From assembly GCA_002733705.1 (NCBI GenBank), contig NVWP01000048.1:1-33331 (forward strand): DNA of 33,331 nt, read 5' to 3'. Position 1 is the first letter of the stretch, and each line of letters begins with the position of its first letter. Below, in pieces: positions 7,203 to 24,001 of the stretch. The notes under the pieces were generated by a model. That model was given only the letters and a program-made list of their open reading frames with translations. It was not told where the DNA came from and searched no databases. Position numbers and translations under genes: made by a program. The DNA comes from Henriciella sp. (GTDB taxonomy: Bacteria; Pseudomonadota; Alphaproteobacteria; Caulobacterales; Hyphomonadaceae).

Positions 7203-8332
7203 TGACGCAGGAAACCGGAACGCTGGAAGCCCGCCTGAAAAGGGATGCGCTGGCGCTCGGTTTCGCAGACTGCGCCATTTGCCGGGCCGATGAGCCCTGG
7301 CAGGCCGGAGAGAGGCTGGAAGCCTTTGTCGAGGAGGGGCGCCATGGCGAGATGGACTGGATGGAAGCCACGCTGAAGCGGCGCAAGACCCCGCAGGCCA
7401 TGTGGGAGGGCGCGCGCTCTGCCATCATGCTGGCAGTCAATTACGGGCCGGACACCAATCCGCTCGAGACGCTGGAGCACAAGACGCTTGGCAACATCTC
7501 TGTCTATGCGCGCGGCGGCGATTATCACGACCTTATCAAGAAGCGGCTGAAACAGCTCGCCCGCGCCTTCGCCGAAGAGAGCGGGGCAGAGGTGAAGGTG
7601 TTTGTCGACACCGCCCCCCTCATGGAAAAGCCGCTGGCGGCGAAAGCCGGGCTCGGCTGGCAGGGCAAGCATACCAATCTGCTCAGCCGGACCTTCGGAA
7701 ACTGGCTGTTTCTTGGCGCGATCCTGACCGATGCGGAACTCACGCCAGATGAAGCGGAGACCGATCATTGCGGCTCGTGCACTGCCTGTCTCGATGTCTG
7801 TCCGACAAAGGCGTTTCCCGCGCCCTATCAGCTCGATGCGCGCCGCTGCATCTCCTATCTCACCATTGAGTATCCGGGCCATATCCCGCATGAATTCCGC
7901 GCTGCGATGGGTAACCGGATCTATGGCTGCGACGATTGCCTCGCCATCTGTCCCTGGAACAAGTTCGCCAGCCGCTCGGCCGAACAGAAGCTCTGGGCGC
8001 GCGCGGAACTGAAGCTGCCGGAGCTGTCCGATCTTGCCGCGCTCGACGATGCGAGCTTCCGGGAAGTCTTTGCCGGATCGCCCGTCAAGCGGACGGGCCG
8101 GAACCGGATGCTGCGCAATGTGCTTATCGCTATTGGAAACAGCGGGGAGCCGTCGCTGGTCGACCAGTCGGTGATCCCGCATCTTGGCGATGAAGCGGCC
8201 ATTGTGCGGGCGGCCGCCATCTGGGCGCTCGGGCGGCTTGATAAGACAAGGTTCGCGGCGGAGAAGGCAGACCGGCTGGAGCTGGAACACGATGAGGATG
8301 TGCGGGGCGAATGGCAGGCAGTAAATCAGTGA
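7202..8332 (+). CDS. queG: Epoxyqueuosine reductase QueG
   Basis: Catalyses the last step of queuosine synthesis in tRNA (epoxyqueuosine to queuosine), using cobalamin and two [4Fe-4S] clusters. The 376-residue product begins at the ATG that shares one base with the upstream stop; a longer in-frame start at 7100 would lie inside the GST gene. Cluster motifs are Cys190/193/196/200 (CGSCTACLDVC) and Cys243/246/250 (CDDCLAICP). The conserved VDTAPLMEKPLA and AGLGWQGKHTNL segments surround the active site. The C-terminal 80 residues look like a HEAT-repeat pair (QSVIPHLGDEAAIVRAAAIWALG), as usual for the family. The 3' end overlaps mtgA. No other queuosine gene is in the window. Note the cobalamin dependence shared with MetH further on. 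Confidence 0.96.
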   Translation: MTQETGTLEARLKRDALALGFADCAICRADEPWQAGERLEAFVEEGRHGEMDWMEATLKRRKTPQAMWEGARSAIMLAVNYGPDTNPLETLEHKTLGNISVYARGGDYHDLIKKRLKQLARAFAEESGAEVKVFVDTAPLMEKPLAAKAGLGWQGKHTNLLSRTFGNWLFLGAILTDAELTPDEAETDHCGSCTACLDVCPTKAFPAPYQLDARRCISYLTIEYPGHIPHEFRAAMGNRIYGCDDCLAICPWNKFASRSAEQKLWARAELKLPELSDLAALDDASFREVFAGSPVKRTGRNRMLRNVLIAIGNSGEPSLVDQSVIPHLGDEAAIVRAAAIWALGRLDKTRFAAEKADRLELEHDEDVRGEWQAVNQ

Positions 8333-15832: not shown

Positions 15833-18471
<2,639 letters not shown>

Positions 18472-18475
<4 letters not shown>

Positions 18476-18687
18476 GATTGATCCTGATCGGGATCCTTTT
18501 TCCTGAAGTTCACGATGCCGAGCAGGCGCCCGGAAATGAAGAAGGCCGTGGCCGCAGAGGCGCCGCCAATGGCGCCAAGCCAGACCAGTGCGAGATCGTC
18601 AAACAGCGTGCTGGCGGCGAACCGGCCAAGACCGTAAGCGGCAACAGCGATGAGAAAGCAGATGATGAATTTGATAAGAGGCGTCAT
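18472..18687 (-). CDS. Small two-helix membrane protein
   Basis: A 71-residue protein with two hydrophobic segments (about residues 4-20, [16 protein letters not shown], and 31-52, [18 protein letters not shown]) and a charged tail ([10 protein letters not shown]). I do not recognise a family. The start at ATG 18687 gives ATGA overlaps with both neighbours, the cyclotransferase upstream and the metH C-half downstream. A longer reading frame from 18795 only shadows the upstream gene. Its place as the coupled gene immediately before metH means it is made with it, but no function can be assigned. Confidence 0.8.
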
Positions 18688-19121
18688 GCGACCCTCTGAC
18701 GGCTTCTGCTCTCCGGCGAAGCCCAGAAGCCTGAGCGAACCATTGGACGGCCCGTTACCGGGCGGTTGTAGACATAGACCCAGGCTTTGGCGCAAGGGCG
18801 TCCAAAATCGTCAACGATAGAGACCTTTTCGCGCCGATAAAGCGCCTTGGACGGCGCATCGGTGCGCACGCCCTCAAACGCGTCAAGCTTTCGGGCAATG
18901 CGCGGATGATCGAGGCGGTAAAGCATGCCGTGGCAGATGCCTTTCTGGCGCACAACACCCGGATAGTCGCCCATATCGAACATGGCGCCCTTGAACCTGC
19001 AGGGGCCAAGAAATTCTCCATGACGCTTAAGGTCAACGTTCTTGGGGCCGCCAGGAAAGCCCTGCTTGAGCAGGCCGTAGAAGATGAAAAAATCACGGGC
19101 AGAGACAGGAGGCGTTATCAT
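18684..19121 (-). CDS. AIG2-like gamma-glutamylcyclotransferase family protein
   Basis: A 145-residue protein with the GGCT/AIG2 fold signature FIFYGLLKQGFPGG at residues 12-25 (family form YGTLxxG, here YGLL), GPCRFKGAMFDMGDYPGVV, and LDAFEGV, whose Glu is the candidate catalytic acid/base. Family members form 5-oxoproline from gamma-glutamyl compounds, including glutathione in the ChaC-type relatives; the substrate here is unknown. Its first codons (MITP) are identical to those of the sulfatase because a 24-bp direct repeat covers both starts. ATGA overlaps join it to the sulfatase upstream and the small membrane gene downstream. G+C is like the rest of the operon. Confidence 0.82.
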   Translation of the reverse strand: MITPPVSARDFFIFYGLLKQGFPGGPKNVDLKRHGEFLGPCRFKGAMFDMGDYPGVVRQKGICHGMLYRLDHPRIARKLDAFEGVRTDAPSKALYRREKVSIVDDFGRPCAKAWVYVYNRPVTGRPMVRSGFWASPESRSRQRVA

Positions 19122-19134
19122 TCTGCGGCCTCAT
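19111..19134. repeat. 24-bp direct repeat, downstream copy (sulfatase/cyclotransferase junction)
   Basis: Identical over 24 bases to 20483-20506 and in the same orientation. On the coding strand it contains the core GCAGAATGATAACG: the last codons (EAAE) and stop of the sulfatase and the ATG ATA ACG (MIT) start of the cyclotransferase. The identity ends abruptly on both sides. Confidence 0.95.
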
Positions 19135-20494
19135 CGGTATGGGCTCTTTGAACCCGAGCTTTTTCAGATTTAAATCTCTCTCTATATTCAGAGAGGATGA
19201 CTTGTGAGCCTGGAAGTAACGCTAAGTTGTTCAACTCGTATGGATCTATTCGAAGATCGAAGAGCATTTCGTAGGTCGATCCGCCAACGCCGTAGTTGAT
19301 GTATTTGTAAGAAGGCGACCAAATTCCTTCGCTCTTAATGATCCTCGGATGATCGAATAGATGCTCGTAAAAGAATTGGGTTCTTTGAGGCCCCGACGCC
19401 AACAAGGACTTACCATCCACAGTTTGAGGTATCTGAAGCGAGCACGCTTCTAGAATTGTCGGCATAACATCAATGTTAAGAGCGACTTGCGGTATAGGCT
19501 CTCTGCGGCTGCCAGAAGGCATTTTTATCACAAGTGGAACTCGAATTGACTCTTCGAACATCCACCATTTGCCAGAAAGACCATGTTCGCCCAAAAGCAT
19601 CCCATTGTCTGAAGTGAATACGATCAGGGTGTCGTCGTACAGGTTCCTCTCTTTTAAAGCAGATACAATTCGACCAACTTGCGCATCCAGCCCGTTGACC
19701 AGTCTATAGTAGTCTCGAAGAGTTTCGGACGCGGTTTCAGGATTACCAAACCTCTGTCTCCAACGTTCACGGCCTTCTGACGTTTTGAGAAACTCTGGCA
19801 GTCGATCAAAAGCTTCCGTGGTGGCGCTAGGTGCGGTTGGATAGAAAAGCTCTTTATAGCTTTCATCGTAAACGTGATCTGCGTCCCAATAAGGTTCGCG
19901 GTGTTGCGTATGCGGCGCGAGCGTCGCAAACGTTAAAAAGAATGGGGCGTCTTTTAACTGATTGATAGCATTGACGGCCTTCGCGCCGATGAATTCAGTT
20001 AGATGCTTTCCGCCATATTCTTCGTCGTAATATAACTTAAAGTTATCAAATCCGTACCAAATATTGAAAAAGTTTTCGCGGGATTCTGTTCCTAATCCCC
20101 ATTTTCCAATGTACGCTGTTTGATAACCAGCAGATTTCATCAGTCCATACAGACCGCGGTCTAGCTGAGCCTGAGTGATCTCACTCCAATTCCAATATTT
20201 ATGGTTAGATGCGAATTGCCCGGTCATGATTGAGGCGCGGCTGGTAGGACATATCGAAGTGGTTACGAAAGCATCATCGAAGCTGTGCCCCTCGGCAACT
20301 AACGCGTCGATATGAGGTGTTTTGATGCCTAGCTTGTCTCTTTTTGCTATCGCGTCAGCTCTTAGATCGTCTGCAATGATAAGTACAACATTGGGCTTTG
20401 AAGTAGAGCTTCGACGAAGGTTCGTGGCACAAGCACCGAGGCCGGCGACTGCTGCCAAACCTGCGACTACTTCTCTTCTTTGGGGCGTTATCAT
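19118..20494 (-). CDS. Sulfatase (arylsulfatase family S1), low-G+C, probably acquired
   Basis: Hydrolyses sulfate esters, probably outside the cytoplasm. 458 residues. The N-terminus has twin arginines and a lipobox (RREVVAGL to LGAC22), suggesting a Tat-exported lipoprotein. Metal-site aspartates are in VLIIADDLRAD (Asp42, Asp43) and FTSDNGMLLGEHG. The formylglycine position is Cys82 in SICPTSRASIMTG; the canonical motif is C-x-P-S-R, here Thr replaces Pro at position 3. Sampled lines of the gene are 38-48% G+C against about 60% around it, a strong sign of transfer. It is bounded by 24-bp direct repeats that form both its start and its end, and overlaps both neighbours by four bases (ATGA). 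No formylglycine-generating enzyme is encoded in the window. The natural substrate is unknown; marine polysaccharide sulfate is plausible inference. Confidence 0.92.
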   Translation of the reverse strand: MITPQRREVVAGLAAVAGLGACATNLRRSSTSKPNVVLIIADDLRADAIAKRDKLGIKTPHIDALVAEGHSFDDAFVTTSICPTSRASIMTGQFASNHKYWNWSEITQAQLDRGLYGLMKSAGYQTAYIGKWGLGTESRENFFNIWYGFDNFKLYYDEEYGGKHLTEFIGAKAVNAINQLKDAPFFLTFATLAPHTQHREPYWDADHVYDESYKELFYPTAPSATTEAFDRLPEFLKTSEGRERWRQRFGNPETASETLRDYYRLVNGLDAQVGRIVSALKERNLYDDTLIVFTSDNGMLLGEHGLSGKWWMFEESIRVPLVIKMPSGSRREPIPQVALNIDVMPTILEACSLQIPQTVDGKSLLASGPQRTQFFYEHLFDHPRIIKSEGIWSPSYKYINYGVGGSTYEMLFDLRIDPYELNNLALLPGSQVILSEYRERFKSEKARVQRAHTDEAAE

Positions 20495-20506
20495 TCTGCG
20501 GCCTCA
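20483..20506. repeat. 24-bp direct repeat, upstream copy (PNPOx/sulfatase junction)
   Basis: Perfect copy of 19111-19134, 1372 bp away. On the coding strand it carries the EAAE C-terminus and stop of the PNPOx-like gene and the MITP start of the sulfatase. Exact recombination between the copies would remove the sulfatase and join the PNPOx and cyclotransferase genes with the same ATGA overlap. Confidence 0.95.
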
Positions 20507-21060
20507 TTCGTCCGTGTGACGCCGGGCAGGCCATCAGTGCTTTCGGCATTGCCTTCATACCAGCGCTGTTCCCAGGTGCGTCCATCTGTGCGGGGATTGT
20601 TGGCATAGCGCTGAAGCTGTTCACGCTCGCCCTTGAACTCATAGAAGGGTACGCCCCAGCCGCAGCTGTCGGAAACCCGATCCAACTTAACGGTGACGAT
20701 GGCGCGCGCCTTGTCGAAATTGGAAAAGAGGGCCAGCAGACCGGCAAAGCGTGGATCATCGAACTGCACTGCCTCGCCTTGCCCATAGAGGCGCACGATA
20801 TTGGCCGCGCCGTCAAAGGCGCAAAACATGATCGTGATACGGCCATTTTCCTTTAGATGCGCCATCGTTTCGATGCCGGAGCCGCCAAGATCGAGCCAGG
20901 CGACCGTGCTCTCATCGATCACGACGAAGCTGTCATAGCCTTTGGGCGAGACATTCACATGCCCGTCGCGCGACAGGGGCGCTGTCGCGACGAAGAACAT
21001 TTTCTGTGCCTTGATGAACTCGATGAGCTTGTCATCGAGTTTCTCATACGTCTTGCTCAT
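20491..21060 (-). CDS. Pyridoxamine 5'-phosphate oxidase-related FMN-binding protein
   Basis: A 189-residue split-barrel flavoprotein-like protein. Signature stretches are IKAQKMFFVATAPLSRDGHVNVSPKGYDSF, WLDLGGSGIETMAHLKENGRITIMFCAFD and IVRLYGQGEAV, which match the PNPOx-like family of putative FMN-dependent oxidoreductases rather than true PdxH. GGGAGG lies six bases before ATG 21060, 12 bases after the metH N-half stop. This is the only junction in the operon that is not a start/stop overlap. Its 3' end lies in the upstream 24-bp repeat. The substrate is unknown. Confidence 0.88.
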   Translation of the reverse strand: MSKTYEKLDDKLIEFIKAQKMFFVATAPLSRDGHVNVSPKGYDSFVVIDESTVAWLDLGGSGIETMAHLKENGRITIMFCAFDGAANIVRLYGQGEAVQFDDPRFAGLLALFSNFDKARAIVTVKLDRVSDSCGWGVPFYEFKGEREQLQRYANNPRTDGRTWEQRWYEGNAESTDGLPGVTRTNEAAE

Positions 21061-21072
21061 GATTGCCTCCCG

Positions 21073-22119
21073 TCAGCTTGCGAGCTGGAACGGTTCTAGC
21101 CCGGATAGACGCATGGCGCGAGGTGGTTCCGGGATGTTTCGGGGCGTCTTGCCCTTCACTGCCTTGGAAATGGCCTCGATATGTGGCGGGGTTGTGCCGC
21201 AGCAGCCGCCAAGCACATTGACCAGGCCTGATTTTGCCCATTCTTCCAGCTGCGCCGCTGTCTGTTCGGGCAGCTCATCATACTCACCGAACTCATTCGG
21301 TAGACCGGCATTTGGATAGGCAATAACGCGTGTGTCGGCGACCTTTGAAATGGCCGCGATGTGCGGGCGCATCATCTTGGCGCCGAGAGCGCAGTTGAGA
21401 CCAATGGCCCATGGCTGCGCGTGACGGACCGAGTGCCAGAAGGCTTCGGCGGTCTGGCCCGAGAGCGTACGGCCGGAGGCGTCGGTAATCGTGCCGGAAA
21501 TGATGACCGGGATCTCCTTGCCCGTCTCGGCGCGGAAATCCAGAAGCGCCTTGATGGCAGCCTTGGCATTCAGCGTGTCGAAGATGGTCTCGATCAGGAA
21601 AAAGTCGATATGCGGCGCCATGGCGTGTGCCTGTTGCAGATAGGCAGCTCGCACATCGTCGAAGGTCACTTCCCGATAGCCCGGATTGTTGACGTCCGGC
21701 GAGAGCGACAATGTCTTGTTGGTCGGCCCGATTGCGCCGAGAACCCCGACAGGCTTGTCTGCGGCGTCGGCAGCTTCCCGCGCGACGCGGGCGCCGGCTT
21801 CTGCAATCTCGGCCGCGATATCCTGCATGTGATAGTCGCCCTGCGCGATGGTGGTCGCGCTGAACGTGTTCGTCTCAATGAGGTCGGCGCCAGCCGCGAT
21901 GAATTTCGCATGGATGTCGCGGACAGCATCCGGCTGGGTAAGGTTCAGGAGGTCGTTATTGCCCTGAACCGCCGTGTCCCAGTCGGCAAAACGCTCACCG
22001 CGAAACTGCTCCTCGGAGAAGGCATATTTCTGGAGCATGGTGCCCATCGCGCCGTCCAGGATCAGGATCTCTTCCCTGGCCTTTGCTTCAAGCTGGTCGA
22101 TCAGTGTCTCGTTTGCCAT
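21073..22119 (-). CDS. metH: Methionine synthase N-terminal part (homocysteine S-methyltransferase module)
   Basis: 348 residues forming the zinc- and homocysteine-binding barrel of B12-dependent methionine synthase. It opens with [13 protein letters not shown], has [12 protein letters not shown] and [12 protein letters not shown], and carries the zinc ligands Cys243 (GLNCALGA) and Cys306-Cys307 (GGCCGTTPP). It ends [13 protein letters not shown], exactly the linker that in single-chain MetH joins the folate domain; the rest of the enzyme is the separate gene at 15833-18475. Two-gene MetH is known in Caulobacter relatives, so the split itself is not damage. The ATG shares one base with the metF stop (TGATG). 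It must assemble with the C-terminal chain to work. Confidence 0.96.
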
Positions 22120-23027
22120 CAGGCCGCCTCCGCCGTTGCGGGTTTCAGGCCGAGCAGGTGGCAGGTCGAAAGCGCCAGATTTGCCCGGTTCAGTGTGTAG
22201 AAGTGGAATTGCTCGACGCCGCCATCGGCGAGCTTGTGACAGAGCTCGGCTGCGACATTGGCCGTGATGAGGTCACGGGTATCGGCGTCATCATCGAGGC
22301 CTTCATAAAGCTTGTGAAGCCAGTCCGGCAGGCTGGCGCCGCACATCTTGGCGAACTTTTTAAGGCCGTTGAAATTGGGCTGCAGCATGATGCCGGGAAC
22401 GAGCGGCATGGTGATGCCGGCAGCGCGGGCCTTGTCGACGAATTCGAAATAGACTTCCGGTTCAAAGAAGAACTGCGTGATCGCGCGGTCCGCGCCGGCC
22501 TCCTGCTTGCGTTTCAGGTGGGCAAGATCCTGCTCCCAGCCCCGCGAATCCGGGTGGGGCTCAGGATAGCAGGCCACCGAGATTTCGAACACCTTGCCAA
22601 GGTCCGGGCGGTGCGCACGAAGGTCGGAGACGAGGTCGACCACATTGGTGTAGCGCCCCTCGGGCTTGTCATAGTCTTCATCCTGCGGCGCATCCCCGCG
22701 CAAGGCGACGATGTGGCGGACGCCGGCTTCATAATAATCTTCGGCTGTCTGCAGGACTTCTTCACGCGGGGCGCCGACGCAGGTCAGGTGCGCTGCCGGT
22801 GTCAGGCGGGTGTCGGTCACGATGCGCTTGACCGTATCGTGGGTGCGCTCACGGGTGGACCCGCCGGCGCCATAGGTGACCGAAACAAAGTGAGGCGCCA
22901 TCGGCTCCAGCCGGCGCACGCACTCCCACAGGCGCTCATCCATGGTCTCATTCTTCGGGGGAAAGAACTCAAAGGAGACATTCGGGCCCTTCTCGCCCTG
23001 CCGGGTGGCAACTGATAGGTGGCTCAT
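22119..23027 (-). CDS. metF: Methylenetetrahydrofolate reductase
   Basis: Reduces 5,10-methylene-THF to 5-methyl-THF, the methyl donor of the MetH reaction encoded in the same operon. 302 residues, the usual bacterial length. It has the catalytic [11 protein letters not shown] segment near the N-terminus, [37 protein letters not shown], and [23 protein letters not shown] with [10 protein letters not shown], all FAD/folate-site features of the family. The start overlaps the sahR stop by four bases (ATGA) and its stop overlaps metH by one base. The protein ends in EAA. Confidence 0.97.
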
Positions 23028-24001
23028 GCGGCAACTTCCTCTTTGTGTTGCGGTTTCCGGGCACGCCAGATGAGAACGGCAATGCCTTGATCCAGGTCTT
23101 TGGGCGGCTCGAAGCGCAGCGCCTCGTCAAGGTGCAAGCCGGCCTGTTCGGCCCAGAGTTTCATTGTGTCTTCGCGAATGCCGAGACGCCGGTGGCCGAA
23201 GGCTTCGCGCATGAATTCGTGATCGTGCTGGGCGAAATCCACGATGACCAGCGTGCCGCCCGGACTGAGGATGCGGCTTGCCTCGCGCACCACTTTTTCC
23301 GGGTCTTCCAGATAGTGAAGCACCTGATGGACAATGACCATGTCGGCGCTTGCCGGCTCAAAAGGTGTTGCAGTGACGTCTCCCTGACGCACGCGCGCCT
23401 GGGTGACTCCGGCCTCGGCAAGTTTGGCCCGCGCCAGGGTCAGCATCTGATGCGACATGTCGAGGCCTTCGGACTCCTGCGCACGATTGCCGAGCAGGGT
23501 GAGCATGCGGCCTGTCCCGGTGCCAAGATCGACCACTTTGCGGAAAGGGCCAGGCCCCACGGCGCGCAGTATGGCCGCTTCGATAAGTTCATCTGGGTAA
23601 TGCATGGACCGGATCTGGTCCCAGTCCGACGCGATCGAGCTGAAATAGGTTTCGGCCGAAGCCTGACGGGCCTGACGCACCGCATCAAGCCGTGAAAGGT
23701 CGTTCGGGAAATCGCCCGTTGCTTCATCGATGAGGTCAAAAAGGTGGTCAGTCAGGGTGCCGGCCCAGCCAGAGGCCGGAATGCGGTAGAAGACCCATGC
23801 GCCTTCGGGAAGACGTTCGGTCAGGCCTGCTGACGTCAGTGCCTTGAGGTGGTGGGAGAGCCGGGGCTGGCTTTGGCCCAGAACGGTCACAAGCTCACCG
23901 ACCGACAGCTCCCCATGGCGCAGCAAAGCCAGAATGCGCAGCCGCGTTGGCTCGCCAGCGGCGCGCAATGCTTCTACCATGGTTTCCGAAGGCTGTCTCA
24001 T
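23024..24001 (-). CDS. sahR: ArsR-family regulator with methyltransferase domain, SahR-type
   Basis: 325 residues. Residues 1-95 are an ArsR winged helix (GEPTRLRILALLRHGELSVGELV, recognition helix QPRLSHHLKALTSAGL). Residues 115-310 are a class I SAM-methyltransferase fold with motif I VVDLGTGTGRM (156-166), QGDVTATPFE and VLHYLEDPEKVVREASRIL. SahR proteins of Proteobacteria have this architecture; their methylase-like domain senses S-adenosylhomocysteine, releasing DNA and inducing metF/metH. The operon position and the palindrome just upstream support the same role here. A true methyltransferase cannot be ruled out from sequence alone. The ATG lies six bases from the palindrome with no Shine-Dalgarno sequence. 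It ends in VAA. Confidence 0.88.
   Translation of the reverse strand: MRQPSETMVEALRAAGEPTRLRILALLRHGELSVGELVTVLGQSQPRLSHHLKALTSAGLTERLPEGAWVFYRIPASGWAGTLTDHLFDLIDEATGDFPNDLSRLDAVRQARQASAETYFSSIASDWDQIRSMHYPDELIEAAILRAVGPGPFRKVVDLGTGTGRMLTLLGNRAQESEGLDMSHQMLTLARAKLAEAGVTQARVRQGDVTATPFEPASADMVIVHQVLHYLEDPEKVVREASRILSPGGTLVIVDFAQHDHEFMREAFGHRRLGIREDTMKLWAEQAGLHLDEALRFEPPKDLDQGIAVLIWRARKPQHKEEVAA

Follow-up and report, generated by a model that had tools for sequence, protein, structure and literature searches.

A foreign sulfatase gene has been inserted into the ATGA junction between a PNPOx gene and a cyclotransferase gene, inside a split metH operon, in the window (the whole 33,331-nucleotide stretch of Henriciella sp. 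DNA that was analysed), and a 24-bp stretch of that junction is present at both ends of the insert, a duplication. Our best model of its origin, to which we give a probability of roughly 60%, is one nonhomologous insertion of an almost exact ORF, accompanied by a 24-bp target duplication and kept for metH coupling. Horizontal gene gain in operons is already known; what is new here is the unusually clear joint.

The operon lies on the minus strand, and its coupled run opens with a gene (23024–24001) that presumably encodes a fusion of an ArsR-type regulator and a methyltransferase. It is followed by metF (methylenetetrahydrofolate reductase; 22119–23027, family match), the N-terminal part of a split methionine synthase gene, metH (21073–22119; TIGR02082 positions 2–338), the gene for a 189-aa PNPOx-fold protein (20491–21060; a match to PNPOx_N, and to PPOX_FMN_DR2398 below that model's cut-off), the sulfatase gene (19118–20494; 458 aa), the gene for a 145-aa gamma-glutamyl cyclotransferase-like protein (18684–19121; GGACT family match), the gene for a small hydrophobic protein (18472–18687; 71 aa from its ATG, judged by eye, overlapping each of its neighbours by ATGA) and the C-terminal part of metH (15833–18475; TIGR02082 positions 340–1182). 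Every one of the four joints from PNPOx through the metH C part is an ATGA overlap.

The direct repeat, GGCGTTATCATTCTGCGGCCTCAT, occurs as identical copies at 19111–19134 and 20484–20507 with a spacing of 1373 bp; the initial annotation had the first copy right, but placed the second one base too low (20483–20506) and gave the spacing as 1372 bp. Read on the coding (minus) strand, each copy is ATGAGGCCGCAGAATGATAACGCC and holds the end of the upstream gene (...EAAE and a stop) together with M, I, T and two bases of a Pro codon of the downstream gene, so that the repeats do, as had been claimed, rebuild both ATGA junctions. Copy 1, at the PNPOx/sulfatase junction (20484–20507, minus strand), contains the PNPOx tail and stop, the 4-base ATGA overlap at 20491–20494, and an SD-like GAGG at 20502–20505, seven bases upstream of the sulfatase ATG. 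Copy 2, at the sulfatase/cyclotransferase junction (19111–19134, minus strand), contains the sulfatase tail EAAE and stop, the 4-base overlap at 19118–19121, the GAGG at 19129–19132 with the same spacing to the ATG, and the first cyclotransferase codons. The 1349 bp of unique insert between the copies (19135–20483, minus strand) lack the start codon of the sulfatase as well as its stop codon; the repeat supplies both. Judged by its sequence, the repeat unit (GAGG, 7-nt spacer, ATGA stop/start and first codons) would constitute a translation relay, and the duplicated boundary appears to give the sulfatase its ribosome site, start and stop while leaving the chain unbroken.

With up to 3 mismatches allowed, the 24-mer has just two sites in the 3.37-Mb assembly and is absent from the genus's 28 other genomes, and viral contigs contained no exact match. 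The insert region gave a single match in the assembly. Repeats over start and stop were searched for in stop-to-stop ORFs of ≥100 codons, many of which are not genes, in 117 stretches totalling 1.98 Mb (the window, 40 from its own genome, 36 loci that are mostly the operon in relatives, and 40 from three congeners). The criterion was an exact repeat over the stop and over a start codon within the first 40% of the ORF. A repeat of 24 bp was present in one of the 7,496 ORFs, the sulfatase ORF, whilst three reached 10 bp, 20 reached 9 bp and 7,472 had none of ≥9 bp; the footprint thus exceeds what chance would give. The 1.98 Mb contained no second case of such a duplication, and so no second instance of a reusable cassette, and the 24-mer flanks no other gene in the genus genomes searched.

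The composition of the sulfatase gene confirms that the low G+C first remarked upon reflects a foreign origin. Its G+C of 46.9% was the lowest among 555 non-overlapping ORFs of ≥200 codons (median 61.8%) sampled from 833 kb of the same assembly, window included; in 300-bp windows the value was 0.44–0.51, versus 0.55–0.67 around the gene. Codon usage is likewise foreign. Compared with its seven neighbouring genes, the sulfatase has a third-position G+C of 0.46 (versus 0.66–0.78), a codon score of −0.34 (versus +0.12 to +0.32), eight TTA codons (versus none) and 14 AGA or AGG codons in 458 (versus 11 in 2,260). ATA makes up 6 of its 26 Ile codons, the shared start codon left out, and 1 of 119 in the seven other operon genes, the cyclotransferase codon in question left out; in the sampled ORFs, which may include antisense ORFs, the share is 8.5%.

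The encoded protein has kept the domains of its family (Pfam Sulfatase PF00884, E = 1.8e-50, and SGSH_C), and its best sequence match among solved structures was 6hr5 (E = 1.9e-67). Its N-terminus carries what we take to be a twin-arginine motif and a lipobox-like GLGAC. The active-site motif, CPTSR (20237–20251), is common to the distant homologues at loci L052 and L056 and departs from the S1 sulfatase consensus, CxPxR. The genome gave one strong sulfatase match, the window gene, and one at the cut-off (25.0 bits). With regard to formylglycine maturation in the host, the only PF03781 (FGE-family) gene found in the genome, at 94.5% completeness, was EgtB, adjoining EgtD.

Homologues of the sulfatase were scarce. 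At E ≤ 1e-60 there were none in 397 other genomes of the order and three in 384 other genomes of the class (36–43% identity), and at E ≤ 1e-65 none in 397 other genomes of the phylum; these samples overlap, their candidates came from a loose first look, and many genomes were scored for at most four only. The best full-length homologue, at 41–43% identity, belongs to an alphaproteobacterial MAG, which was also the one relative in genome_contigs (41%). Plasmids gave 662 matching records, all below 60% identity, the best 15 of the 662 lying at 27–35%. Among the matches listed (relatives, class, order and phylum samples, genome_contigs, plasmids and viral contigs) there was no full-length relative above 43% identity, and no donor lineage was identified in the samples searched, which covered the window's own phylum with genome samples and other phyla through genome_contigs (exact peptide patterns) and plasmids. 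The homologues start within a few residues of an RR pair (MNRREF, MQRRGF), and the insert does likewise (QRREVV). Since the homologues begin only a few residues before their RR, the insert corresponds closely to an exact sulfatase ORF.

The PNPOx gene was found in 26 of the 29 genomes of the genus; leaving aside the window's own, this gave 25 loci, every one of which was compared. The sulfatase was in the operon at none of 33 loci, these 25 and eight from outside the genus. The site is empty in nine congeners (G002, G004, G009, G013, G016, G017, G018, G019 and G020), where PNPOx is followed by the cyclotransferase with a 4-base ATGA overlap in all nine; together with the absence of the sulfatase from all 25 congeners, this upholds the initial reading of a foreign insertion into a translation-coupled junction. 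G002 alone among the nine has the full order PNPOx, cyclotransferase, hydrophobic gene and metH without the sulfatase. The further expectation, that an empty site should hold a single copy of the 24-mer, was borne out as to the ATGA overlap, but not as to identity. In the best ungapped match, which is in register, the 24-mer has 6 mismatches to the junction of G002 and 7 to that of G013; even at the closest empty site, then, 6 of the 24 positions differ, and no sibling with an identical single 24-mer was present among the genomes compared. The other seven empty junctions have 9–11 mismatches, near the 10–14 of junctions that lack a cyclotransferase. The PNPOx tail reads GAGGCCGCGAAATGAT in G002 and G013 versus GAGGCCGCAGAATGAT in the window, and because these two genomes match in register, the 24-mer is at least partly the recipient's own junction, namely in its PNPOx-tail part. 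The last part of the 24-mer, AACGCC in the window, has ATGATTGCACC, ATGATCGCACC or ATGATTGCCCC as its counterpart in the nine. The cyclotransferase starts MITP in the window (ATA ACG for I T) versus MIAP in 9/9 congeners, where the start reads ATGAT[T/C]GC.

With the insert removed, the window agrees with G002 at 72–97% in 30 of 34 60-bp bins and at 45–67% in the other four. G002 is the nearest congener for the methyltransferase (85%), metF (94%) and the metH N part (90%). For PNPOx, G011 and G025 come closer (86%) than G002 does (75%), the cyclotransferase is nearer to G004, G013, G016, G017 and G020 (86–88% over 107–135 residues) than to G002 (83%), and the metH C part is nearer to G017 and G018 (93%) than to G002 (91%). 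As the nearest congener differs gene by gene, the operon is a mosaic for which no congener is a clean parent. Within PNPOx, the stretch just before the repeat (20527–20610, codons about 151–178) matches the alleles of G011 and G025 (RYADNPRTDGRTWEQRW), whereas codons about 15–35 and the tail are G002-like; the stretch is either a mosaic patch adjoining the insertion site or a set of old shared alleles.

The slot between PNPOx and the metH C part varies across the genus. It holds nothing in G005, G023 and G027, a 66-aa gene resembling the hydrophobic gene by eye in G011 and G025, and in other congeners the cyclotransferase, a DUF1428 gene alone or with another after it, or an unnamed gene (G021). 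Five slot proteins were scanned and gave DUF1428 and RlaP (G003), a methyltransferase (G007), DUF4259 (G014) and no family (G021); the DUF1428 label in other genomes was assigned from the common start MTY[I/V]DGFV. Many joints in this slot across the genus are 1- or 4-base overlaps. With such varied contents, gene gain or exchange at the slot is recurrent. Differing genes, often overlapping, thus occupy the gap between the halves of split metH (window 15833–22119, loci L060–L084) and, in some genomes, also the gap between metF and metH. In a walk through the operon genes of congeners, no gene walked had a repeat of >10 bp at its ends; this walk was rough, was made without L067 and L064 (no usable metF start), and was partly wrong, through a start or a shadow ORF, in at least L071, L072, L079, L080, L083, L085, L086 and L089. 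Among the loci walked, the window alone shows the footprint of a duplicated boundary in the slot; such footprints may decay elsewhere, or this may be a single accident.

According to our preferred model, a foreign 1349-bp fragment, the sulfatase ORF minus its start and stop codons, would have entered in one nonhomologous event in which 24 bp of the target were duplicated, either when a staggered break was filled in or by a template switch back of 24 nt. Copy 1 would then have provided the sulfatase with a ribosome site and a start, whilst copy 2 would have supplied the sulfatase stop and remade a ribosome site and start for the cyclotransferase. Selection would have retained in-frame, coupled outcomes, because a broken chain would lower the downstream half of metH. 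We infer from the DNA as it now stands that there was one event, that a staggered break or a template switch lay behind it, and that selection acted. Counting against target duplication, a fragment that ends so near both a start and a stop is a notable coincidence. The host has a ComEC-type gene (PF03772), but 10 of 14 control genomes have one too, so its presence says little about transformation.

Part of the 24-mer may be the donor's, because I T departs from the I A of the congeners and the sulfatase uses ATA more often than the other operon genes or the sampled ORFs do. An unlikely, though the least unlikely, alternative to target duplication takes this up and regards the junction as chimeric: the right part of the 24-mer (ATGATAACGCC) would be the donor's own start, which first became fused, at ATGAT, with the tail of PNPOx. 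The second junction would then derive from this one, either through gene conversion or through a tandem duplication of the 1373-bp unit and a subsequent deletion, the first cyclotransferase codons being overwritten either way. A chimeric origin would account for MITP in place of the MIAP of all nine empty-site congeners, and for the ATA at codon 2, which the native operon genes seldom use and the sulfatase uses often; PMC11111574 also reports that transferred genes are activated by illegitimate-recombination tandem duplication. However, two or three events are required, and drift can explain the head of the cyclotransferase, which is diverged from G002 anyway (bins of 62% and 73%). The argument from codons had looked strong at 1/119 inside the operon, and is weakened by the 8.5% ATA in sampled ORFs.

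Integration of circular or other DNA through the 24-bp homology, which for a circular molecule was the model offered by the initial annotation, has the attraction that a single crossover yields exactly this geometry and that the empty site would be regained if the two repeats recombined. We nevertheless consider it quite improbable, as the 24-mer is partly of recipient type and a foreign circle would have needed a recipient-type 24-mer; no donor carrying the 24-mer was found, the sequence being absent from 28 congeners (≤3 mismatches) and from viral contigs (exact). Homology of this kind could explain transfer between strains within the species, not the origin of the arrangement.

Some integrases make long target duplications, and a cargo gene flanked by a duplication could be the work of a trans-acting enzyme, be it a casposase-like or another transposase or integrase. 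This is less probable again. No ORF of ≥100 aa other than the sulfatase lies entirely within the insert, so that there is, as initially reported, no transposase gene (nor an integrase gene) of that size there, and inverted repeats of ≥10 bp are absent from the insert ends, although 10 inverted pairs of ≥10 bp lie within it. Moreover, there is no second instance in 1.98 Mb, and the ends of the insert coincide with those of one ORF. An ordinary transposon was rejected, there being no transposase ORF of ≥100 aa, no terminal inverted repeats and no further copies of the insert region in the assembly or of the 24-mer in the assembly and the genus genomes. IS elements and transposons with target-site duplication share with this locus the direct repeats at the flanks of the insert, but their target duplications are usually shorter than 24 bp, and here neither a transposase gene nor terminal inverted repeats were seen.

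A draft assembly or binning artefact is made conceivable by the 156 contigs, by a repeat as short as assembly k-mers and by the low G+C of the insert, but we regard it as very improbable indeed. By reasoning, even a false join at the 24-mer would presuppose that molecules really exist in which this sequence flanks the sulfatase at either end, and both junctions are in frame, with the ORF intact and its active-site region conserved. An old vertical gene lost in relatives was rejected on the grounds of foreign composition, identical repeats and the absence of the sulfatase here from 25 of 25 congeners, with no support seen for it.

Insertion with target duplication has points in common with several known systems. 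Mosaic operons too have taken in a foreign gene while keeping their coupled layout, but at this locus an exact repeat of the stop/start relay still marks the joint. Illegitimate recombination at transformation, whether homology-facilitated or double, would be similar in needing no extended homology and leaving a small target duplication, whereas here the duplicated stretch is precisely the translation relay and the insert comes close to an exact ORF. In TDAH, the activation of transferred genes by tandem duplication described in PMC11111574, a short join likewise supplies an expression signal to a silent foreign gene, but there the signals are promoters in tandem arrays and here they are a translation start and stop within an operon, in a single copy. 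As to integron gene cassettes, the repeat here is coding sequence of the neighbouring genes. Among the literature matches listed, no title or opening of an abstract described a duplicated stop/start relay around an operon insertion.

To our knowledge, it is poorly understood how a single gene enters a tightly overlapped operon without loss of downstream expression. The locus looks like a still legible joint, and it suggests that duplication of a short stop/start relay can suffice. Whether duplication of a stop/start overlap along with its ribosome site serves operons generally as a way of gaining foreign ORFs with coupling intact is a more speculative matter, and we put this forward only tentatively. 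If it were so, target duplication would act as a gene trap, in which any in-frame ORF fragment gets a start and a stop, and the window would be a rare young case with its footprint yet undecayed.

Direct repeats elsewhere in the same assembly were listed over 833 kb (exact, ≥15 bp, 120–4000 bp apart). The longest, up to 47 bp (L126, 8454–9960), lie inside two neighbouring paralogues, which we take to be GGDEF-type, and were rejected as an insertion because they are a conserved C-terminal segment of these paralogues. No start/stop repeat of >10 bp was present at the long repeats of L126 (35 bp), L107 (23 and 18 bp), L112 (22 bp), L129 (21 bp), L103 or L133 (both 18 bp). At L126 (8441–11199) the C-terminal segments of the neighbouring paralogues are almost identical, perhaps through gene conversion. 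At L133 an AT-rich 18-bp element (TAGGATATTATTCCTAAT or a near shift of it) lies around low-G+C ORFs, at 8114, 10950 and 13345.
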